A stretch of 64,000 nucleotides of DNA, taken from NCBI GenBank assembly GCA_026874595.1, contig CM049310.1, positions 68,030,056-68,094,055 on the forward strand, read 5' to 3'. Shown here piece after piece: positions 16,401 to 49,640 of this stretch (its first letter is position 1; each line of letters begins with the position of its first letter). The notes under the pieces were generated by a model. That model had not been told where the DNA came from. It saw only the letters and a list, made by a program, of their open reading frames with translations, and did not search any database. The stretch is from Sipunculus nudus (Eukaryota; Annelida; Sipuncula; Golfingiida; Sipunculidae). The translations under genes were made by a program, and so were the position numbers.

Positions 16401-19400
16401 TGTGGCCCACCATTTGTTTCTTACAATTAAGTGTCTGAAACAACATGTCTACAGAATTTAGTTCCATTTGATCCACTCCAGAATTGATAACACTGACAAG
16501 AACTTTAACATAACAGACTGGTCAAGGCCAGGTGGAATATGGCAATAATAGGGGAACTTTGTTAAACACCAGACAGGCAAATGCTTACGACATAAAATAA
16601 AACGTTTTTACAGGGGGAAAGAGTAAAGCCACACAAGTCTTGGTAGATGGCCTTGAATGTGCAGAAACTTTGGGGGGGATATGTTTAGAATAAAGTCGAA
16701 ATTAAATTGACATAGTATTCAATGTGCAGAAAAAATATGACGTGACTACCAAATAGAATAGAGGAAAAATTATTCATGAAAGATGATTTACTAGATTTTC
16801 TTGCATATTTTAAGCATATATTTTACCACATTTCTAATTGTAATATGTACCAGTCAACGTGCATTTAAACAGACTTGTGTGACCCCAATGAGAGCACATT
16901 ATGGCACCTGTATTTCAGTGTTCATTTAAGAACTTTCCATTGTGAAGTGAAATAAGAAGCAGATTTTAAATGCACTTTTAGCCTGTACTTTAAACTCTTT
17001 AAATACAATAACTCTATAATATCTTACGGATATCTGAAAGCTTGTTTTTTGGGATACATGTTAACCCAACCAGATGTTACTGCGCATCTGTACAAGTGTT
17101 TTTTCTTAACTCCGTTGGGTTCCTGACACAAAGATCGTTTTTCTGGCCTTTGGGTTAAGGTTAATGTATGACCCACTTGCCCGGTCAGGAAAGAAGGAGG
17201 TGATTTTAGTTGCCCTAATACCATTTTCTGGGACTTCTCCTTGCCTTGGGCAAGTGGTTAACTGTAATTGTTGAGCCCTGCTATGATAGCACTGAACATC
17301 GTGGTGATAGATTGATGAAGGCGGCTGATCATGTCCTGATTTAATGAACTAAGTGCACATTCAAAAAGTTTAGTAGAGATAAGACTAACTTTGATGAAGG
17401 CCTTCCCACACAGTTCACACTTCCATTTGCCATTGTGTGCTTTAATGTGCTGTTCAATCTTGTCCAGTCTTGGTGAACCATAATAACACAGATGACACCA
17501 GTACTTGCTGCCGTCAAAGTGAAACGTAGCTTCGCTGAAGGCGGGTGACAACTTGCTGACAGCGTCCTCTTTTGTTGAAGAGGGTGATGTCTCCGTGCTC
17601 GAACCTATATCACCAACGTTTACTGTCAGTATAAATCCAATCAAGATTGCATTACCATTTGCTGACTGATGATTGTATGACAATATACGTCTAGTCATTG
17701 TACCCAGGGCAAGTACAGGGTGGGTGAAGTATGTATAATCACTGATAAACCTGAATATTTTCTATTCAAGCAAATGAAACAAGTCAAATATTGCCATCCT
17801 AAAGAGAAGTTGAATACATGCAGCTTGGTAAGTTTTCACAAATTCTGTTGTATGATATGGTTGCAACTCTATGTTTTTTAACAGAAATACCAAATCTACA
17901 GGACACACACGAAATATATAGATATACACATAACACTTGCCTTACCAAACAAATATAACACATATATAGATAGCTATTCTTGACAAAATCTCCAAAAATT
18001 AGAGGAAGAGAATGGAGGAAGTAGATTCATAACATAAAGTGAACATTAAAGAACAGTGGATGGTACAATACATGTTTAAGATACTGACCTTGACCTTGGT
18101 TGTGGGATTGTAGTGCTCTTGGAGAGTATCCCTGGTACCTCCCATAATCCTCTGGTGTTTCTGATCTGGTACTGACACCAATGGGAGAGGTACAGTTGTT
18201 GAGAGGACCTGTCTCTCTGGGTGAGGAAGCTGACAGTGTCCTTGTAGCCCTCCTGTTGCCAGTGGTACTGTGTAGTGCTGGTTCCTCTGGGCAGCCATTC
18301 AGCACTCTGGCAGATTCGTTCTCCCGCTTGTTATTACTGGGCGAGCTGACTATGATGATGTCCGGAGATTCTCTTCCTGCCAGCTCAGCTTCTTGTTTAA
18401 CGATGACATCCTGGTCACTGTAGGCTCGGTCGTGCGGGTCATTCTGTGTGCTGTCTGGCTGGACAAGTGATGCTGCAAGGCTGCTTGAGGATATGACAGG
18501 CAGGGGGTGAGCGTCTGTCAAAGCATGTGTTGTGTAGATCCCTGTGTCATGTGGCTGTACATCTATGTAACTGTTGCTTGTTTTGGCAGTTTCTTTAACA
18601 TAGTTCTGACTTGAGAAATGAGCTTGTTCCTGTACTGAAACAACACTGTGAGTGCCCAGGGCTGTGGGTGGTCCTACTGTTAGCAGTGGTTCACTGTGCT
18701 GTACAGCTATACTAGCAGGCCTGTCACTGCTCACCAATGATGGCTGTTTGCGAAGTGGTGGTGGTGGCGGCAACGGACTGTCTATTTTAGATATCATACC
18801 ATCCTGCGTAGAGCCGTTCTCCTTGGAAATGTTCATGGCTAACTGTAGAGGGACTTGTGTTAGAGGAAGAGAACCAGGTATGTATGTAGGCGGTGCACCT
18901 GCTAACTGGAATGGCTGCTGCAGTGATGACATGGCTGCTAACTGCTGCTGTTGCATCAGTTGCCAGTTTGCTGCAGCTTCTGTGTTGAATGCTGGAGCCA
19001 GAGGATTTATCCCTCCCATACCCCAGGCCTGTAAGCCAAATGCTGGATTCATCTGAAACAAAATAAACAATCACACTTCATGATGGGAACACCTACTTAC
19101 TTCTGTATATAATGACACATTCCAATACCTAGGGGACAATATTACTAGGTCAAACTAGAACTCTACAATGACAGTTCTCTGAGTGCAACACATTTTAGAG
19201 GTTACAGATATCTAATAGTATGTATCAACATTCTACATGGATTACCAGATGGCAAGTCACACCAAGTTCAACAAGAATCGCTTGTTTTTGACAGATATAC
19301 CCCCCTAAATCTAAGGAAAAATCATGCATTAAAGTATATACCTTCATGCATTCACAATAGTAAGGTGGCTTGCCGGACACGAAAAGCATCAAACTTTGTC

Positions 19401-22400
19401 CATGTATTAATCATGGCTTAACCTTTCAATTTTTAGCTCAGCTGACTATAAGTCATCAGAGCTATAGTCATGGTCCATTACCTGTTGTCTGATTGTCTGT
19501 CTGTCTGTCTGTCCGGATGTTCATCCGTAAGACTGGCACGTTTCGACACCATTGGACCTACGAATCTTAAATTCGGCATACAGTTAGATGTCCCCAAAAT
19601 CTCCTACCATGCCGAAAATTGGGTTAATAAGACTTCTTTCCTTCGAGATATTAAGGAAAAACCTCATTTTTTTATCTATTTTCACACTTCAGGACTGCCT
19701 AATATCAAAACCACTCAACTGGTTTTCTTCATATTTGCCATAAATATTCCTCTATATAGTTCCTATTTACATGCCAGAAATTAAATCAGTATTATATAAT
19801 TTAAACAAGGGACCCATGGGTCACTGTGCTCAGCTAAAGTTGACCATGAAGGTTAAAATCTAAAATAATATCAAATGGAGATAAAGTGTGAGAGGAAGTG
19901 GTAATATAGGCCATGGTTGGTTTATATGATTGGTTTTTATTGATAAGCAAGAATTAGTGCAAATAATATTTTGTGACCTGACCTTGTGTTTCCAAATGTT
20001 GAAACTGAAGCATGTGAGCAGTTTGTGAACAAATGATCTGTACTATTACTATGATCATTAGTTGGCTTTTTAATTAACTGTTGACTGTTCAGTAGTTTAC
20101 ATATTTGTTCAAATGATTCTTTTTTTTAAATATATATAATTAAATCCATGTATTTTTTATTTTATGAAATGTATACAGTTTAAATATAACTAATGTGCCC
20201 AGTCCACAGATGAAAGGACTTGGTGATGGGGGGGGGGGGGGGGTTAGGAATGATGGGAGTTACAACATATCTGTATTATTATAGTGTATATATGTCAAGG
20301 CCCAGATCCCGATCTGGACCAATCGGTGATTGGTCTACGGATTGGTCCAGACCGGATCCCAATCGGGATTTAGTCCGGCCTAAACCCCGATCAGGATCTG
20401 GTCCAGCCCTTGTCCAGACCAGATCCCGATCAGGGTTTAGGCCAGACCAAATCCCGATCGAGATCTGGTCTGGACCAATCGCCGATTGGTCCAGACCAAT
20501 CGGGAATTAGTCCAGACCGAATCTCGATCGGGATCTGGGCTGGACATACACATAGGATTTTCACTTAATTCAACAACGCTTACTTGATAAAAAGTTCATT
20601 CACAATTACTTAATATTTAATAAAGGATAGACAGTCTGGTAGACAAACAAAGCTGATAATATATGAAGTTTCAATTTTTTTCTTAATTTATTTATTATAT
20701 CAATTTTTTTAGGTTTAACATTTGCAATGATACACAACTGAATATATAAGTTGCTTTCAAATTTCAGACTTAAATAGCTTAATTCCATACACATACAGCA
20801 TGTGAAAATTATTTCAACAGTGCTTATAGGAAAAATTTCATAATTAATATATATTTAATGATAATGGAGAGATGATGGACAGACAGAGCTGATCACTTAT
20901 GTTCCATTCTCCTAAGGCAAGAATATGTTTCAATAGAATCTTAATTTTTTCTAATCCAATTATTTTTTAATTTGACCAGTGACCTGGAGTGGGACCCAGC
21001 ATATGGACATGCAAATGACTACAAAAGAGCCTCAAGAAAAATTTCAATAACTTGCCTATTTTCCAAGCTTTTATTTTAAAATTTCAGATTAAAACAGATT
21101 AAATACTTATATTTGCATGCTGTGAAAATTAAATCAATAGCACTTACAGGAAAAAATGTGCCATGGTCAAAGTTGGGCAATATTTAAGGTACTGATTTTA
21201 TTTTTACGCTAATAACTTAAAAAATTTACAAAATTCAGATCTAGGGACTTTTCACTAATACAACTTTAATTAATCAAAATTTAATCATATACCAAAAATT
21301 AGATCAAAATCTGTTAAATTTTTTTAAATATTGGAAAAAATATAAATTTGGTACCTTAAATTTTGCCCAAGTTTGACCATGGCACATTCTTTTCTTGTAA
21401 GAACATTTGATTTAATTTTTCACAGTCAGTATATATATAGTTTAAGTCTGTTAAATTCTGAAATTTGAAAGTAAAGCTAAAAAATTATTCTGGTTATTGA
21501 AGTTTTTCTGAGGCTCTAATGTATTTACATTTTGAACCTCCAGACCAGCCATGTCTGGTCCCTACAGCCATGTCTGGGTTAACGTATTAGTGATGCAACA
21601 CTGCTTTTACAAATGTAGAATCACATGTAGCAACCCTGGAGTTGGCAAATCTGTTGTTGTAACAGCACTCTATCAAACCTTGCATTGTCATTTGTGTTCA
21701 ACTGAAGGCCAAGATCCACCAGATGTCAAATACTCTTCACAGCACCAACCGGAAAAGCTGCCTACAATGTGCAAGGATCAGCCGTGCATAATGCTTTTCG
21801 TATTGACCCAAACAAAGGGTTTGAATACAAAAGGCTATCCTCAGACATTCTTAACACACTCAGAGAGTACACTATAGAAACCTGAAAGTTCTTATGATCA
21901 ATGAAATCAGCATGGTAGGAAATTGTATGTTCAACTTTGTCAACTTGAGACTTCAAGAAATAATGGAAACAATAAACATTTTGGAGGTATCCATATTATT
22001 GTCATAGGAGACCTCTTTCAATTGCAGCCAGTAATGGAGAGTTGGATTTTCAATGATCTTACTGATAACTAGAATACGGGTAGTCGACAAGCGACTACTT
22101 GTATCCGCCTAAATCAGAGTGGAACGGGTGAAGTGTTGCATATTAGCATGGATATTTTATCCCATGGCAGACAAACAGATGGGAGCTGTGCAAACATGGC
22201 TGCAGGTGGCGCCACCAGTTTTGCGTATGATAAAGAGCTATGTGAGATTTATACACATGCAAAATTTTGGCCCAATCGGTCAAACGGTTCCCTAGATATG
22301 AGCTTGGATGTCGCAGCGTAAACTTGATTGTAGGTGGCGCCACCTGTCATAAAATCAGAAAAGCTATCCAGGATGTATAAGCATGCCAAATTTCAGGTGA

Positions 22401-23584
22401 ATTAGTCAAACCACTGCAGAAATATGAGTGATTTTAACCCAAGGCAGACGAACAGATGGACACTGTGCAAACATGGTTGCAGGTGGTGCCACCATTTTCG
22501 GTGTATGTTATAAAGCTCTCCAAGGGCTACATTTGTGCAAAAAACTTTTCCTGATCGGTCAAACGGTTCCTGAGATATGAGCTTGGATGTCTGCAGCGTA
22601 AACGTGAATGTAGGTGGCGCCACCTGTCATAAAATCAGAAAAGCTATCCAGGATGTATACGCATGCTAAATTTCAGGTGAATTAGTCAAGTCACTGCAGA
22701 GATATGAGTGATTTTAACCCAAGGCAGACAAACAGATGGACACTGTGCAAACATGGTTGCAGGTAGCGCCACCATTTTTGGTGTATGTTATAAAGCTCTC
22801 CAAGGGCTACATTTGTGCAAAAGAATTTTCCTGATGGGTCAAACGGTTCCTGAGATATGACTTTTGATGTCTGCAGCGTAAACGTGAATGTAGGTGGCGC
22901 CACCTGTCATAAAATCAGAAAAGCTATCCAGGATGTATACGCATGCCCAATTTCAGGTGAATTAGTCAAGTCACTGCAGAGATATGAGTGATTTTAACCC
23001 AAGGCAGACGAACAGATGGACACTGTGCAAACATGGTTGCAGGTGGCGCCACCATTTTTGGTGTATGTTATAAAGCTGTCCAAGGGCTACATTTGTGCAA
23101 AAGAATTTTCCTGATCGGTCAAACGGTTCCCGAGATATGAGCTTGGATGTCTGCAGCGTAAACGTGAATGTAGGTGGCGCCACCTGTCATAAAATCAGAA
23201 AAGCTATCCAGGATGTTTACGCATGCCCAATTTCAGGTGAATTAGTCAAGTCACTGCAGAGATATGAGTGATTTTAACCCAAGGCAGACGAACAGATGGA
23301 CACTGTGCAAACATGGTTGCAGGTGGCGCCACCATTTTTGGTGTATGTAATAAAGCTCTCCGAGGGCTACATTTGTGCAAAAAAATTTTCCTGATCGGTC
23401 AAACGGTTCCCGAGATATGTGGGTTTATGTGTGGAAACAGACGCACAAACGGACGCAGAGCGCAAAGGAAAGGTCAGAGGTCAAAACAAAATCGGGGCGC
23501 AGCAGTTCACATGTGACCCGAACATAATCCCGGGTTTCGGAAAATTCCGCCCAGCGGTTACGGAGGAGTTCTCCGGACACCTAC

Positions 23585-23634
<50 letters not shown>

Positions 23635-26600
23635 CAGCTGAAAACATAGTATCCGCAAAACTCTGTTTTGGCGGATACAATTATGGCCCACTTGCAACAA
23701 ACCTCTGGAAAGAAGAATTCTTTGTATATGGACTAACTCAGATAATGTGTCAGAAAGAAAATGCATATTTTGCAGAACTACTAAAACGCTTGAGAGAAGG
23801 CAATCAGACACAAGCAGACATTCAGACTCTGAAATCTAGGATAATCAGCACTGACAGTTCATATCCCACCGATGCACCATATCTCTTCACAAACAATGCT
23901 GATGTAGACCAACACAATGTTCAAGTGTATCTTCAGTCAAAAACTGAGAAAGTCATAATTACTGCAGTGGACACAGTTCTTGCAGTTCTGACTGACAACA
24001 TCAAGCAAGAAGTCATATCAAGAATCCCTGATAATCCTTCAAAAACTGTTGGTCTGTTACACAAGTTACAAGCAGCTACAGGACTCCCTTATGATATTGC
24101 CTGTAATGTTTCTGTTCAAGATGGAATAACCAATGGGTGTTCATATGTGAAAAAAAATTCAGTATCTACAAAATAACCCTACACCAGCAATTCTATGGGT
24201 TCAGTTTCCAAACTGCAACATCGGTATTGAAACAAGAAGAAAATATCATTCCTTCTATACACCTGATATTGATAAAACATGGACCCCAGTATTTGCTATT
24301 GAACAGACATTTTATACAGGAAGGAAACATATATGTATTACTCGTTCAGAGTTCTCCCTAAAAATAGGAGCTGCAAAAACAATCTGGAAAGCACAAGGAT
24401 CCACATTGGATGAGGTGGTAATAGATATGACAAGCAGAAGGAAACTTATGCATGGTCACTATGTAGCACTTAGCAGAGCAAGACAGATGAATGGCGTATA
24501 CATACTAATTTAGTTGAACATAAAATTGCTACTGATCATCAGGTCAAAAATGAAATGAACTGATTATGCAATGACATGCCTCTGAAAGTGAATTTCAAAC
24601 AACCATCTGTTGAATCAAATGAATTATTACAGGTTATCTACCATAACACGTGGTCCCTACATTTGCATCATCAGGATGTAAAATCTGGTTGCCATATACT
24701 AAACACCCAAATCATTGCTTTTCCAGAGTCACGCCTTTGCTCTAGAGACCAAAATGAAATATATTGAAAACCTCATTACAAACGTATCAGAAACCAGAAT
24801 AAGGGTCGTCGACAAGCGACTACGTGTATCCGCAAAAATCAGAGTAGAATGGGTGAAGTGAGGCATGGATTGAGTCGCAAGGAGAAATAGAGTTAGATGT
24901 GTTACATATTAGCATGGACCCCTGCCATGTAAACATGACTGTAGATTATGCAACCTGTTATTTGAACGAGAAACTATCCAAGATGTATACACATGCAAAA
25001 TTGCAGGTGGAAAAGTCAAACCACTGCCGAGATATGAGTGATTTTATCCCACAGCAGACAAACAGATGGACTCTATGCAAAAATGGTTGCAGGTGGCACC
25101 ACCAGTTTCTTGTATGATAAAGAGCCATGTGAGATTCAAACAAATGCATCACTTCGGGAAGATATGTCAAACCAGTCCGGAGATATAAGCATGAATGTCT
25201 GCAGCATGAATGTGAAAGTAGGTGGCGCCACCTGTCATAAAATCAAGAAAGCTATCCAGGATGTATACGCATGCCAAATTTCAGGTGAATAATCAAACCA
25301 CTGCAGAGATATGAGTGATTTTAACCAAAGTCAAATGAACAGATGGGCTCTGTGCAAAATTGGTTGCAGGTGGCGCCTCCAGTTTTGCGTATGATAAAGA
25401 GCTATGTGAGATCTATACACATGCAAAATTTTGACTGAAACAAATGGACGCCGGGCAGAGAGGAAAGGTCAGAGTTCAACCAAAAATGAGGGCACAGCAG
25501 TTCACATGTGACCCAATCATAATTCCGAATTTTAAAAAATTCTGCCCAGTGGTTATGGAGGAGTTCTCTAGAAACCTATGCGGCAGCGGCGGCGTCCGAC
25601 TGAAAACAGTCTCCGCACAACTCTGTTCTGGCGGATACAATTATCAAGGTACTGGAGGTTTTGTATCAAATTTTTAATTATTCTGGGGGATATTTACAAT
25701 CCCTATAGCTCAGAGAATATAGGTTGCACTTACCTAATTACAGGTTTCCAAAGGGATTTTTCATTTACCTCCCTGGATGTTCACTTAGAAGTTTCTTAGT
25801 CCAGTGGTTATGTTTTGTGCACTGCTAACAGAAGGCTGAATGCCAGCATGGATGGGCAGACAGACTGATGGCTAGAGGGATGACAGACAAAGCGCCACAC
25901 CTATACCTCAGTTGACTTTCAGTCAGTTGAGCAAAAATTTTTTTGTTTAAGTGAGATAACAATTATTATTACAATGCCCCATATCAGTCACATAAACTAT
26001 ATTTTACCTGCAAGGCTGATGTTGTCCCAAGGGACGGCATGCCAGCTAGTCCAGGGAATGGAGAGACTCCTTAAACATGAAAGGAGAAACAAAACTGGTA
26101 TTAAGCTCATATCATGTAATTCAAAACCTCTTCCAACAACAAAAACACTCAAAATACATGTAGATAAAATGTGAAATTTATCAAATGACATCTTGGCTTA
26201 ACAAGTGACCTATGGGTCATGACACTCAGCTTACTAGGAAGACATTCACAAAAGGAATTTAATCATCTGAATGCCAAATTATATAGGTGGTTTCCCCATT
26301 CACCTGTAGCAATTACAGTTCTTCAAAATCAACAAGAAGAAAAAGTTTCATGATCATATGTCCAGCCAATCCCATGATATTTAGCCTTTTTGTATGTAGT
26401 CAGCATGTTAGAAATGACCATGCACATTTTTTAAGGAGAACCCTGGATGTCAAGACAGAAGTTTCTACGTCCAACGGTAAAGTTTGGCACCCTGTCCGAC
26501 TGTCTGGGTGTTTAAAATGTTTTTGGCCAGTAATATAGGTCATCATAACCTAATTTTAGGTTTCAATGGAGATTGCCCAAGATGTTTTGGCCGGTAGCAC

Positions 26601-29600
26601 ACAAAATAAGGCCAATATGACCTCATTTCAGGTTTCCATGGAGACTGCCAAAGATTCCTTGTATATTAGATTGGAACATTCTAAGGCTAGCAGATCCAAT
26701 TCGTGCCCATCTGATTTTCAGGTTTCTAAAAAATCATTCTTTTGGCCCATAGTTCACAGTATATAGATTGTGATGACCTAATGTCAGGTTTCCAAGCAGA
26801 TTTACCAAGGACTTGCCTGAATATCATGTTAGAAGTTCTAGGTCTTATGGTTTGGATTTATGCCCTGTTAAAGGTCGAACTGCTTCATCTGAAGGTCTAA
26901 ACAAATTGCCAGTGGGCCATGATGCTCAGCTAAATTTGACTTGGAGCTCATTTTTTTTATTAATATTATATACTCTCTGTAAAAATAGCCTATTGCTAAT
27001 GTTACTTTGTTGGAAAATGGACAGAAAATAAAAATTTCAGGATTCATAGGAGACCCGCCGTAGAACCCATCTGGATTTCACAATAGAAGGTTCCAAGGAA
27101 AATAGATACAATTTGTACCCTCTCTGTCTGGGTGGTTGAAATCATGTTCTGGGTCGGTCTTTTTACCGAGCACTACCGAAATTCCCTAGCGCTAGCTCTC
27201 GGTAGGAATTTTTACCGAGCGCTTCCCTGGATTCACAACAGGCATTGCTCTGACCCGCGTGGGGCTACCAGCGCTCGGACTTTTAACCGAGTGCTGCCCT
27301 GCTCTTACAACAGGCAGACTTCTTGCATACTTGGGACTACCGAGTCCTAAGGACTTTCTACAGACAGACCAACAAACAGATGGACAGCACGATGGACGGA
27401 CGATGGACAAAGAATGATCACTATAGCTCAGATGACAGGCATGCAGCTCATGAAATCTAGTCTCATGATAGTTAACAGCAGTAAATAAACTTCAAGGTTT
27501 TATGTTCCTGTATAAATGGTTGTACTCTTCAGGTAATATATAAAGTTTGACAAAGTGTATAAATCCTGAAGTAATACTAATAGACTATTTTTATAACTAG
27601 GATACGGGTAGTCAACAAGCGACTACGTGTATCTGCCAAAATCTGTGTGGGACGGGTGAAGTGAAGCATGGATAGAGTGGCTCAGGAAAATAGACAGGAT
27701 GTTTTGCATATAAGCAAGGATGACGCAAAACCAGAGTGGGACAGGTGAAGTGAGGCATGGATTGAGTGGCGAGGGGAAATAGAGAGAGGTGTGTTGCATA
27801 TAAGCATGAACGTCTGCAGCAGAAATGTGTATGTAGGTGGCGCCACCTGCCACAAAATCCAGAAAGTTATCCAAGTTGTATACAATTGCAAAATTTAGGG
27901 CAGATAAGTCAAACCACTGCTGAGATATGAGTAATTTTATCCCATGGCAGACAAACAGACGGACGCTGTGCAAAAATGGTTACAGGTGGCGCCAACAGTT
28001 TTGCGTATGATAAAGAGCTATGTGAGATCTATACACATGAAAAATTTTGGCCCAATCGTTCAGACATTTCCTGAGATATGAGCTTGGATGTCTGCAGTGT
28101 AAATGTGAATGAAGGAGGCGCCACCTGTCATAAAATCCAGAAAGCTATCCAGGATGAATACACATGTAAAATTTCAGGTGGATAAGTCCATTCACTGCAG
28201 AGATTTGAGTAATTTTATCCCAAGGCAGATGAACAGATGGATGCTGTGCAAAAATGGTTGCAGATGGTGCCGCCATTTTAAAAAAAATAGCATAAAGCTA
28301 TCCAAGGGCTACATTTGTGCAAGACTTTTTTCCTGATTAGTCAAACAAGTCCGAAGATGTGGATGAATGTGTCAAAACACACACATAGATAGACGCACTG
28401 GAGAGAGGAAAGGTCAGAGGTCAACGCAAAATATTTTGGCACCAGTTCACGAGACCCGATAATCGTGTAAAGTTTAGGTAAATGTGTCAAGTGGTCTCAA
28501 GAGTTCTATTCCGGAAACGAACGTGGCAGTGGCAGTGGAACCTGGTCAAAAACATAGTACCCGCAACACTTTGTTTTGGCGGATACAATTACCTAGTGCC
28601 TTTACTATTGCTTCAACAAAGGGAAGCCCTTAAGACCATCTGTTAAAACACTGGCTAGTTTCATGGTGGGTGAAGAGTGATCAGTACAGCTTAGTTAATT
28701 TGGGAGTCAGCTGAGCTTTAATCAACAGTTTAATAGCACAAGGGGCATGATGTCTAAATTTCCTCTGATGCAAGATCATAACGATGAAATGAATGCACTT
28801 ATGATGACTGCGAAACAACAATGACTGTGAGATAACAATGACTGTGAGATCACAATGACTGAGACATAAGGATGACTTGAGATAACGATGGCTGTGAGAT
28901 AATGACTGTGAGATAATAATGACTGAGATAATGATGACTGCAAGATAATGATGACTGTGAGATAACAATGGTGCTGAGATAACATTGACTGTGATATAAT
29001 GATGACTGTGAGTTAATGATGAATGTGAGATAAGTTGGTCAGCACAGAGAAATCTTGCTTTAGATGGGTTCCCCAACTGGTCTCATACCACAGGCTCCAT
29101 ATGACATCGTGACTGGATTTGTCTCACAACTAAAGCATTACAACCTCGTCATGCTCATGTTCACTTATTTAATGAACATAAAATTACATTGAATTTTTGC
29201 ATTAGTTTATGAAGAAATATTGATTTATTATGACAAGAGAGACTATTTTTTCAAAATAACTATGCATGATAGCAATGTAGAGACAATTCAGCAATAGGAA
29301 GTACAACATTGTTTTGATATGTCAGCAAAAAATCCACCTTGTTAAACTACTCTTAATATTCATTGTTCAAATTATTGCCATAGATTTTTTTTAATCCTTT
29401 GCCAATTTACCAAGATTGCTTTTATTTTTTATGCCCATTCTAGTCAATTATCCTTCTGTATTGACTGTTTTTCAGTTTTTTGCAGCGGGCCTTTTGCTGA
29501 CTATTTTGAGTTCCTCAAGCAACATACCTTGGTGTGTGGCTGGAGTGGGCATGCCTATGGCTGTTTGAGTCTGACCAGGCATGCTGTACTGGGCTGAGAT

Positions 29601-36746: not shown

Positions 36747-36934
36747 CAAGCAAAAACAATTGTAGCTGGTGCCAACAAGCTTTGTAAGGCACCAGTTCAC
36801 ACATGTACCCTATAAAGATTCCGGGATTTGGAAGTTTCATCCAGCAGTTTTAGAGGAGTTCTCCAGGAAAGAATGTGACAGTGGCCAGCACTGGCTTAAA
36901 ACAGCATCCGCTAACTTTGTACAGGCGGATACAA
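36747..36934 (+). mobile_element. Family B element, 3' fragment
   Basis: It contains the B 3' words (CACCAGTTCACACATGTACC, GAGGAGTTCTCC). It ends GCATCCGCTAACTTTGTACA then GGCGGATACAA. The 5' part is missing. Confidence 0.65.
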
Positions 36935-38640
36935 ATAAAGCTTGGGGTGAGCAGTTGGGCGAGAGGCCGTAGCAGCATGGCTGGATGCTACATGCCAGCT
37001 CCTAGTTAGACTGCTGCTGCAGGCTCTGAGGCTTGGTATTGATTCAGGACACAAAGGCACGGATGATGAAATTTTGTTTACACTGTTAATATCAAGCAGT
37101 TGAAAATCCATAAAGCAACATCAATGAGCGGGCGCACCATGAGTGATCCTGCATTTCTCACTGTATCCAGTCAACATCATACTTTTCATACGTAAATCGA
37201 GTGGGTGAAGCATATAAATTAAACTTGCTTTAATATGATAACTTACAAAAGAGGAAGATGGAAATACTGAGAACTATCAAATGTCTTGCTAAACAAGTTT
37301 ATTATATTTCACAAATACATATATAAAGAACATATAGAAAGATGTATTTTTACTGTAGCTTTCTCTATTTTTGCAAGGTTGAATTCCGTAATTTTTGTAT
37401 TTTTCGGTCAGATTCCAGTAATTAATGTTTTTGAGAAAGTGTCAGACACTATAAGGTAGTTTAAACTGAAAAATCTGTAATAAATCTGAAAATTTACAAA
37501 CTGTGACCAAATTAAACCTTAACTGTGGACCTACTATGACTATAACCACCATTATACTGAAGCAAGGGGACTCAGAGCACAAAAAAGGATGTTTCAAATG
37601 ATACTGCCAAATACTACATATATACAATAAGTTGCCCTGAATTCATGGTTTCACACTGTTCCATAATGGAAATTTGAAAAAAAATGGAAAAGAAATCTTG
37701 TCTAGCAATGAAGAAACTTCAGTGACAGACACCAGAAAGAATGAGGACGACTGAACACTACTGAAGGTGAGCGTGTGACAGCGAACTGTGGTGTGCAGTG
37801 CTGACCTACTTACACATGGGACACCTCATCATCATGCTGCTTCAATGTGTTATACATTATACGAGCTTCATGTGGCCATAACCATGATATGCAAAATTAA
37901 ATATCTGTTCTGTAAATGATGACAAAATGTGCAAGGTTTGGAACACACATTGTGAAGTATGTTATTTTACCAGTGACACTTTGTAATTTAAAAGATTAAC
38001 TATTCCAGGTCATTCTTTACTCATCTGTAATTAAATCTGTGCATCATAGATTGTAGTGTGGTCATATTCATTAAATATTTGGTCAACTAAGATCCAAACT
38101 GATAATGATTTGATAAACTAAGATCTAAACCAATGGAAGCCGGCACATACATCCAAGTCTGATACATATTTCTTTAACCTACACATTGCCAACAAAATAT
38201 TTACTGTATGCAACATGGCTGCTGTTAGCTCATTTGTTTCTCTTTGAATGCAAGTTATGTGTGGCCAACAAAACTGCCCTGTTACAAACAAAGTACCAGG
38301 TAACAAGCCACGCCATCCTTACCTAGCCCTTTATGCCCTTGTTCAATGGTATAAATCATTACACTGAACATCTCATTACTAAACATACTTATTTACTACT
38401 GTAAAATACGAGTAGCAGTGACTCAGAGCTATAAAGGATTGGATCATTAATATCTGAAAAAATAAGCTTCATATTCATTTATTTATACTGAAGGTGACAA
38501 CATGTTTTTATGGATTTCTTTAAAATGGATCAAGCCTATGAAGATGACAATCCACAAGTATATGCCAAATACAACCTTAACTGATAAAGCACCTTATTTT
38601 ATACAGCTAAAAATCATAATGATAACAAGACTGTACAAAA

Positions 38641-48060: not shown

Positions 48061-49640
48061 AAGGATTCTTCCTTTTTTAATGGGACATAAAAAGTCAAGT
48101 TTGAAATCCATATAACAATTAAGCTGGAATTATCATCTGGAAACTACTTTTTGGACAGATGGCTCTCATGACCTTGACCTCTGACCTCATGACCCAAAAA
48201 TGGATAGAGTTCTTGCCTTATTGATGAGACATATATCAGTCAAGTTTGAAATCAATATATCAATCCAATCCAGAACTAGAATACTGGTAGTCGACAAGCG
48301 ACTATGTGTATCTGCCCAAATCAGAGTGGTACATGTGAAGTGGTGAAAGGATATAGAGGTAAACGCCACCTGTCATATTAACAAAAAAAATCTATCCAAG
48401 ATGTATACACGTGCAAAATTTCATGTGAATAAGTCCAACCACTGCAGAGATATGCATGATTTTATCCCAAGGCAGACAAACAGATGAACACTGTGCAAAA
48501 ACAGTTGCAGGTGCGGCCACTAGTTTTGAGTATAATAAAGGGCTATGTTAGGCCAATACACATGCAAAATTTCAGGTTGATATGTCAAACCAGTCCTGAG
48601 ATATTAGCATGGTTGTCTGGAGCATAAATGGGGAGGTAGGTGGCGCCACCTGTCACAAAAATGGAAAAACTATCCAAGGTGAATAAACATGTAAAATTTC
48701 AGCCAAATCAGTCAAACGAGTCCTGAGATATCAGCATGGACGTCTACACTGCAAACAAATAGGTAGGTGGCGCTGTAATTATCAATGATACCTGTTATAT
48801 CAACGAAAATCTATCCAAGATGTATAAAATGTGCAAAATTTCAGGAGAATAAGTCCAACCACTGCAGAGATATGCATGATTTTATCCAAAGGCAGATAAA
48901 CAGATGGCCACTGTGCAAAAAATGATTGCAGGTGGCGCCACCAGTTTTGGGTATGAAAAAGGGCTATGTTAGACCTATACATATGTTAAATATCAGCTGA
49001 TCTGTCAAACCAGTCCTGAGATATTAGCATGAATGTCTGGAGCGTAAATTGAGAGGTAGGTGGCGCCACTTGTCACAAAAATCGAAAACCTATCCAAGAT
49101 GTTTAAATGTGCAAAATTTCAGCACGATTGGTCAAATGAGTCCAGAGATATGGGGGTTTATGTGTGAACACAGACACACAGATGGACGCAGAGTGCAGAG
49201 GAAAGGTCAGAGGTCAAAACAAAATCGGGGCGCAGCAGTTCACATGTGACCCGAACATTATCCTGGGTTTCATAAAATTCTGCCCAGCAGTTACGGAGGA
49301 GTTCTCTGGACACCTACCCTGCCGCGACGGCGGGCTGAAAACATAGTATCCGCAAAACTCTGTTTTGGCGGATACAATTATCATCTGGAAACCAATTTTA
49401 AACAGACGGCTTCTGTGACCCTCACAGGATTTTGATAGGAATCTTTCTCTATTGCAGGTGAGCTATATGTTCAAGATGGAAGATCTGGGTTGAAAAGTTT
49501 GGCTTAAAATGCAGCCACAATATTTTTAAAGATGTGAGTCCTGTGACCTTGACCTTTGACCTCATGACCTAAGAACCTATAGGATTCTAATTTTAGTGGT
49601 GGGCCTTACATAAGTCAAGTTTGAAATCAATATGGCTATC
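48060..49640. repeat. AGGTCA-type tandem array interrupted by a family B element
   Basis: Units contain CAAGTTTGAAAT, CATCTGGAAAC and TGACCTTTGACCTCATGACC words. They occur before (48060-48275) and after (49378-49640) the B element. 49544-49570 holds four AGGTCA half-sites on the minus strand with spacers 2, 1 and 0, the same layout as at 32708-32734. Confidence 0.65.
48276..49377 (+). mobile_element. Family B element, fourth copy, in a tandem host array
   Basis: The 5' palindrome is GTAGTCGACAAGCGACTA, then TGTGTATCTGCC. The core has GGTGGCGCCACC near 48638, 48931 and 49059. The 3' end is GTATCCGCAAAACTCTGTTT then GGCGGATACAA. The neighbouring unbroken host unit gives the empty site (GGAA|TTATCATCTGG); the insertion lies between AA and TT without duplication, as in the helicase copy. 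Confidence 0.8.

Follow-up and report, generated by a model that had tools for sequence, protein, structure and literature searches.

Within a 64,000-nt stretch of Sipunculus nudus DNA (contig CM049310.1; hereafter the window), a 1612-bp block of a repeat family, family B, lies inside the helicase gene of a Helentron. The locus raises the questions of how the block entered the gene, whether the insertion left a target duplication and whether the interrupted element is of the kind that mobilises it. The block is very probably a protein-less Helentron of recent insertion (a HINE, or non-autonomous Helitron2) lying on the minus strand, whose transposition would involve nicking at T-N-R^TT.

Insertion into a Helentron helicase

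The features at the insertion site are as follows.

21636–22068, plus strand: host Helentron helicase, left part, decayed (frameshifts, stops)
22067–22068, plus strand: target AA, left side; the same letters AA end the element at 23679–23680
22069–23680, minus strand: family B non-autonomous Helentron (HINE/Helitron2), 1612 bp, 5' end at 23680, 3' end at 22069
23681–23683, plus strand: target TTA, right side; the third-place A is near-invariant across the family
23681–24793, plus strand: right part of the host Helentron helicase, continuing into the first part of its endonuclease region and reaching the second element

Judged by the domains predicted in its relatives, the host is a genuine Helentron with Rep, PIF1 helicase and endonuclease, and the initial annotation was right to place the block in a Helentron helicase. 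Relative L029 carries Helitron_like_N, PIF1 and Exo_endo_phos_2 within one 1684-codon frame; of the closer relatives, L023 has Rep and PIF1 and L022 the endonuclease. In the window itself the left helicase piece matches PIF1 at E 4.4e-5, under the curated cut-off, and the right piece has no PIF1 match. Other helicase copies are 70–94% identical to the window's. Over about 20 kb leading up to the 3' end, two host-lineage loci remain ~96–98% alike, possibly reflecting either a long Helentron or a larger duplication.

Removal of 22069–23680 fuses ...TTCAATGATCTTACTGATAA to TTATGGCCCACTTGC... and, as had been proposed from the window alone, restores the frame FNDLTDN/YGPLATNLW (the slash marks the junction here and below). 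By their coordinates, 22 of the 43 matches listed span this junction, the window's own two halves being excluded. Of these 22 copies 18 were read, and all 18 are gapless and lack the block. Their empty site, GATAA/TTATGG (GATAATTATGG), is exact in 13 copies and differs by one substitution within the 11 letters in the other five. Thus, the block-free helicase to which the initial annotation had looked in other genomic copies is present, and it confirms that the block entered cleanly and precisely between AA and TT, with no net loss of bases. The claim that both ends are fixed to the base goes too far for this locus alone. Because AA precedes the cut and also ends the block on the right, the cut can be moved by two bases, the same empty site resulting from removal of 22067–23678, 22068–23679 or 22069–23680, and a 2-bp AA duplication would look identical here.

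The block-free copies might instead have arisen by precise excision from a filled ancestor, and such removal would indeed leave identical sequence behind. Against this, the empty sites occur at unrelated loci in two lineages that are ~70% identical (e.g. L021–L026 versus L029 and L040–L042), and the block hardly differs from its copies at other places, and so postdates the divergence of the helicase copies. We consider excision extremely improbable.

Anatomy and classification of family B

The following elements of the block were observed directly.

23670–23680, minus strand: TTGTATCCGCC, the asymmetric terminal inverted repeat of the 5' side, flush with the 5' end (0 nt)
23649–23678, minus strand: 5' terminal hairpin built from the 5' inverted repeat (DNA folding)
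23585–23634, unstranded: 5'-module microsatellite of 16.7 GCG units
22154–23419, unstranded: central tandem array, 4.5 copies of a 280-bp unit with two GGTGGCGCCACC-like palindromes per unit, spaced 131/149 bp
22099–22109, minus strand: GGCGGATACAA, the inverted copy that forms the asymmetric repeat of the 3' side, set 30 nt back from the 3' end
22080–22098, minus strand: 3' hairpin GTAGTCG-CTTGT-CGACTAC, set 11 nt back from the 3' end
22069–22072, minus strand: 3' terminal CTAG

The 5' hairpin is strong: the 40-nt end folds as DNA at -10.9 kcal/mol (z -7.7), a value equalled by none of 200 shuffles. It is retained when 121 nt are folded, GC-rich microsatellite included, although the structure as a whole does not then exceed chance (z -0.8). 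The 3' hairpin, in a 47-nt end, gives z -3.0 and is equalled by one of 200 shuffles. The two halves of the 280-bp unit are 52% identical over 166 columns, with a score of 88 versus a mean of 54 and a maximum of 71 in 200 single-base shuffles, a faint sign that the unit may itself descend from an older doubling. By open-frame length the block is protein-less, since the longest stop-to-stop frame wholly inside it has 84 codons at most; a 219-codon frame extends beyond the block into the helicase.

Helitron1 elements have 5' TC and no 5' hairpin, whereas family B has 5' TTG and a strong hairpin. By contrast, the block shows the features of HINE/Helitron2 elements: an 8–15 bp inverted repeat that lies flush with the 5' end or a few nt from it, a hairpin involving that repeat, and an inverted copy ~20–60 nt from the 3' end preceding a 3' hairpin. 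It also has a TT target without target duplication, although a 2-bp AA/TT duplication is still conceivable. Central tandem repeats and a microsatellite, common in HINEs and not obligatory, are both present. The repeats, hairpins and CTAG end bear out the rolling-circle type suggested initially, and the block is a typical member of the HINE/Helitron2 class, ordinary apart from its useful target rule.

Copy number and age

Family B is a high-copy repeat: 40 of the 41 matches listed, the window included, are full length at 97–100% identity, and an exact 30-base end occurs 3,959 times in the genome versus 0 for the reversed control. Mean substitution divergence between the window's block and its 20 nearest copies is 0.36%, so this subgroup is young. 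Three further members lie in the window.

24794–25640, minus strand: second, shorter and more diverged member; its left end reads CCAG... on the plus strand and it abuts the same Helentron fragment at ...CAGAAA/
27597–28588, minus strand: third member
48276–49377, minus strand: fourth member

Two HINEs other than the block were met at copies of the same Helentron, namely 24794–25640 in the window and one in L036/L022. With thousands of family copies and a short AT-rich target, no particular cause has to be sought for an insertion in this helicase. Head-to-tail junctions gave five genome-wide matches, one of them direct. As this pair joins two different variants, it is no evidence of rolling-circle tandems; one element has probably inserted next to an older one, and a replication product is less likely.

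A sharp family-specific target

We describe here a sharp target specific to the family, AA/TNA (TNA^TT on the element's strand), observed directly at the ends of its copies. Genome-wide, AA adjoins 3,880 of the 3,959 exact 3' ends (98.0%), equivalent to TT after the 3' end on the element's strand. At the 8,218 exact 5' ends, T comes next in 6,210 and A stands at +3 in 8,042 (97.9%), versus a background A content of 33% in the flanks of 21 copies. Each of these 21 copies has a left-hand AA, a right-hand ACAA and A at +3, and T comes next in 20. The target at the 22069–23680 locus is TAATT (AATTA on the plus strand).

Precise empty sites were also found outside the helicase. Joined flanks were prepared for 24 insertions and 11 were used as queries, one of them shortened by 8 bases. 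Among the matches listed, three of the 11 had spanning matches: L004 and L010, with clean empty sites at all loci read (6/6 and 2/2), and L054, whose left flank is TA. Each of the eight empty relatives of L054 that were read lacks two bases compared with the joined flanks; the alignment puts this gap within an adjacent AT run in three (AAAAA up to the junction) and at the junction itself in five. We take the AT run to be the cause of this shortfall and do not count L054 as confirming clean insertion.

With AA almost fixed on either side of the insertions, a 2-bp AA duplication stays strictly compatible with these sites. A cut-and-paste, MITE-like element of 1610 bp could produce it, in keeping with the filled sites AA[...]AA and the single AA of the empty sites in the helicase, L004 and L010. 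The extreme ends of the block, however, lack matching terminal inverted repeats, and the inverted copy lies 30 nt inside, with a hairpin and CTAG between it and the end, which is the arrangement of Helitron2. Moreover, the internal inverted repeat GGCGGATACAA includes AA, so that AA looks like element sequence. Copies with other letters on the left point weakly in the same direction: there are 79, of which 20 were fetched (14 with a readable right end, six unreadable), and all 14 readable ones have AA on the right and no matched pair such as GA...GA, although loss of an original left AA by later mutation would have the same appearance. Taken together, a MITE-like origin is very unlikely, and insertion of a Helentron without duplication is the reading we retain.

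For such an insertion, the nuclease, the strand and the intermediates of family B transposition are those that we infer as follows. An autonomous Helentron would supply Rep and helicase in trans. The donor strand would be nicked before the 5' TT (TNA^TTGTATCC) and after the 3' CTAG (CTAG^TT), and, following published models, the 3' hairpin and the paired asymmetric repeats would mark the end of replication. The target would be nicked at TNA^TT and the single strand joined there. All three nicks would share T-N-R^TT, which would account for AA/TT on both sides of the insert without duplication. We tentatively suggest that helentron families in one genome have distinct strict five-base nick sites, TNA^TT in family B and TTT^TT in a second family. 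With T-N-R^TT at the donor 5' end, the donor 3' end (TAG^TT) and the target of family B, one HUH nuclease specificity per family would perhaps account for which ends and targets are chosen and for the lack of duplication alike.

The mobilising partner

The initial annotation regarded the interrupted gene as of the type that may mobilise the block, which stands at the level of the superfamily only. That the host lineage itself mobilises family B would agree with their common superfamily, with the Rep, PIF1 helicase and endonuclease encoded by its relatives, and with a 3' end that likewise has a hairpin and CTAG/CTTG followed by T. Yet the host copy is a decayed fragment, and the 3' end of its family (...GACCCATGGGTCCCTAG/CTTG, then T) differs from that of the insert. 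Furthermore, TTGTATCCGCC and GGCGGATACAA are absent from 24,265 and 22,279 bases at two relatives, stretches that stop short of the host-lineage 5' end, and from shorter stretches of H23, H29, H40, H41 and H42; family B ends are thus absent from the stretches read in two Helentron lineages (~93% and 70% identical to the host). The host Helentron is probably not the insert's mobiliser, and its lineage is an unlikely one.

A partner was also sought by pairing 3' and 5' ends at the places listed in the first 13 Mb of C1. A 5' end lies less than 3 kb away for 39 of the 54 3' ends, giving elements of 407–2395 bp whose lengths, judged by eye, cluster ~285 bp apart, close to the 280-bp unit. For none of the 54 in these 13 Mb is the nearest matching 5' end 5–20 kb away, as sought for an autonomous element. 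Among the remaining 15 3' ends, one belongs to a 3.7-kb pair spanning the next element. The other 14, unpaired and read for ~2.9 kb each, contain no long open frame over that distance (longest, 140 codons), and all include family B interior sequence (296–2008 bases matching). An autonomous partner with the family B ends was thus not found in this search or in the stretches read of the host lineages.

Relation to known systems

The family B layout agrees with the published descriptions of Helitron2 and HINE elements (PMC3627910, PMC4067079, PMC7492417). Cg_HINE of the Pacific oyster (PMC7492417) shares with it the 5' subterminal repeat with an adjacent complementary repeat, the 5'-module microsatellite, the satellite-like tandem array, the 3' repeat followed by a palindrome, and a TT preference without target duplication, with empty sites found via joined flanks. 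The two differ in the repeat unit (280 bp, 131+149, versus monomers of 140–180 bp, compared by description) and in the microsatellite (3-base GCG versus mostly 4-base motifs, 3 to 8 being found), and TNA^TT is sharper than the T-rich or TT preference stated for Cg_HINE. HINE-Mo and DINE-1 (PMC4067079) are likewise described as Helentron derivatives without protein, with paralogous empty sites and at least two T on each side that can be assigned ambiguously to element or target; the 5' repeat is flush with the end in family B and 2–4 nt in for the mite HINE-Mo. In the Helitron2 group (PMC3627910), too, a 5' repeat 0–2 nt from the end forms a 5' hairpin, T stands at the 5' end, and a 3' repeat ~20–30 nt from the 3' end is followed by a hairpin, a likeness of DNA layout. 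With Helitron1/Helraiser (PMC4778049), family B shares the CTAG 3' end followed by T, a hairpin near the 3' end and, in about three quarters of its 5' ends, A^T insertion; it differs in having 5' TT instead of TC, asymmetric inverted repeats and a 5' hairpin.

At this locus a Helentron gene copy has been broken up by a member of its own superfamily, and family B provides a clean example of how rolling-circle hitchhikers insert. Its thousands of copies allow the Helentron preference, so far loosely given as 'TT' or 'T-rich', to be measured as a word specific to the family, and given a known autonomous partner this word could be paired with a nuclease.

Empty site of the family B insertion

The decayed Helentron helicase in the window (C5:68030056–68094055) is split by a minus-strand copy of family B, an abundant non-autonomous Helentron (HINE), of 1612 bp (22069–23680).

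Features of the helicase host and of the family B copies in the window
21636–22068: left piece of decayed helicase, with frameshifts and stops
23681–24793: right piece of decayed helicase, with frameshifts and stops
Start of element, minus strand: 5′ end TTGTATCCGCC
22099–22109, minus strand: internal inverted repeat GGCGGATACAA
Close of element, minus strand: 3′ end GGCGGATACAA-GTAGTCGcttgtCGACTAC-CCGTATT-CTAG
Between the two element ends: GCG microsatellite
Between the two element ends: tandem array, 280-bp unit, 4.5 copies
24794–25640: second, more diverged family B member, adjoining the same host fragment

As the initial annotation had proposed, deletion of 22069–23680 repairs the helicase frame (FNDLTDN|YGPLATNLW). 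The joined flanks of the block, used as a query against the 1.43-Gb genome, matched 43 rows, 22 of which, judged by their coordinates, extend across the junction (not counting the two halves from the window itself). In all 18 of the 22 that were read, the junction is gap-free, with GATAATTATGG exact in 13 and carrying one substitution in 5; identity to the window's helicase is 80–94% for one group of these loci (L021–L028, L030–L035) and ~70% for the other (L029, L040–L042). The 18 gap-free junctions therefore favour a precise insertion at GATAA|TTATGG over an empty site with bases missing or duplicated and over a block carried by all helicase copies. One helicase copy (L031) contains an unrelated insertion of ~1.1 kb at ~975–2104, with inverted ends GGTGGCTCGTAT.../...ATACGAGCCACC.

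The further claim that both ends are fixed to the base does not hold at the helicase locus: since AA stands before the block and AA also closes it, three placements of the cut yield an identical empty site. Placement is equally ambiguous across family B: all 21 copies compared (the window's and the best 20 after it) show AA as left flank and ACAA as right end. Three insertions with repeated flanks were compared with their relatives. Clean empty sites with a single AA were found in 6/6 loci read for L004 and 2/2 for L010; L054, whose left flank is TA, is not a clean case: each of the 8 relatives that were read lacks two bases of the joined sequence, and the alignment sets this gap in an AT run nearby in three of them and at the junction in five. 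We place the AA inside the element, because the internal inverted repeat at 22099–22109 also reads GGCGGATACAA and because HINEs are described as having an equally ambiguous T assignment and an unmodified target (PMC4067079).

Target site

Family B ends were counted by exact match, so that duplicated segments are counted more than once. AA lies beside 3,880 of 3,959 exact 3′ ends (98.0%), 31 lacking A at −1 and another 48 lacking it at −2. T is next to 6,210 of 8,218 exact 5′ ends (75.6%) and A occupies +3 in 8,042 (97.9%), the A content of the flanks in the 21 family B copies being 33%. These counts therefore give AA|TNA as the family B target, which reads TNA^TT on the strand of the element. 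Among the first 100 listed 5′ ends with A at +3 required, T is found at +1 in 81 and A at +2 in 36. Another HINE family in this genome, searched with a pattern whose sole demand is not-G at +7, gave 2,588 ends; in the first 100 listed, A stands at +1 in 88, at +2 in 97 and at +3 in 97, which makes its target TTT^TT. T-N-R^TT describes both ends of family B (TNA^TT and TAG^TT) as well as its target, and a single nuclease may recognise all three.

Architecture and age of family B

At the 5′ end, TTGTATCCGCC pairs with adjoining bases in a strong hairpin (40-nt end, z −7.7), and a second hairpin is found at the 3′ end (47-nt end, z −3.0); in a 121-nt stretch including the microsatellite, the whole fold is at shuffle level and the 5′ hairpin is still kept. 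No stop-to-stop frame lying wholly inside 22069–23680 exceeds 84 codons. This layout is that of Helitron2 (PMC3627910) and of mite and oyster HINEs (PMC4067079, PMC7492417), as described in those reports. Paired copies (39 pairs from 54 3′ ends examined) are 407–2395 bp long, with length clusters ~285 bp apart as judged by eye. The mean substitution difference between the window's copy and its 20 nearest copies, 0.36%, marks the subgroup around it as young; resting on best matches, it speaks to this subgroup and not to the mean age of family B. A further stretch ending like the family B 5′ end (GGCGGATACAAAT) lies at 36880–36936. At C9:43969900–43974100 (L099), two different family B variants stand in direct head-to-tail order, an arrangement that would arise if the AA|TTA edge of one had served as the insertion site of the other.

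The host and other insertions at Helentron copies

The host was rightly named a Helentron, because Helitron_like_N, PIF1 and Exo_endo_phos domains occur in its relatives, with the three together in a single frame in L029. In the window, the left helicase piece has a PIF1 match below the curated cut-off only, and the domain search found no PIF1 match in the right piece. The suggestion that family B had jumped into the type of gene that may mobilise it stands as regards a Helentron host, but probably not as regards this host lineage as partner. The lineage ends at its 3′ side in ...GTGACCCATGGGTCCCTAG or CTTG followed by T, which differs from the family B end, and family B end repeats are absent from 24,265 and 22,279 bases of two host relatives. 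These sequence comparisons are good evidence against the host lineage as partner, although not final, because its 5′ end was not found in the stretches read.

The left junction of the second family B member (24794–25640) is compatible with insertion at AAA|TG (CAGAAA|) of the endonuclease region. The DNA to its right (25641 onward) has no match to the Helentron stretch compared, so a later deletion, rearrangement or recombination between two copies probably occurred there. A different HINE family, with ends TTATGCCCC...CTAG and repeats of roughly 180 bp, occupies ~546–2254 of the joined pair L036/L022 (C3:10572138 onward), another copy of the host Helentron; its empty site is visible in L037/L021 and L038/L023.

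Among the Helentron loci, tandem repeats of ~63 bp, varying among copies, lie within or close to the beginning of the protein region in L036, L037 and L039–L042. Two loci on different contigs (L067/L065/L064/L037/L021 and L068/L066/L063/L036/L022) remain ~97% alike over the ~20 kb that lead up to the 3′ end, which would fit a larger duplication as well as a Helentron of great length. Directly upstream of the window's helicase lies an imperfect inverted repeat, 21020–21523, which matches its reverse complement at 74% over 516 aligned columns; the adjoining stretch from ~21240 is also found next to the helicase pieces of L025, L027, L032 and L033, which are truncated at differing points. Short GATC-rich foldback repeats (73–84% self-complementary stretches) occupy 20340–20545, and long minus-strand open frames at 17258–19070 give the impression, from translation, of exons of a putative zinc-finger regulatory protein.

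Relation to published elements

Published descriptions give a preference for TT or T-rich sites in oyster (PMC7492417) and mite (PMC4067079) HINEs, and for AT sites in AT-rich surroundings in Helraiser (PMC4778049), whereas family B uses TNA^TT. In a limited literature search covering parts of these three reports, no five-base target rule was seen for those elements; we do not claim that the rule is unpublished. Since family B has thousands of copies, its insertion in a helicase is an ordinary event for the family.
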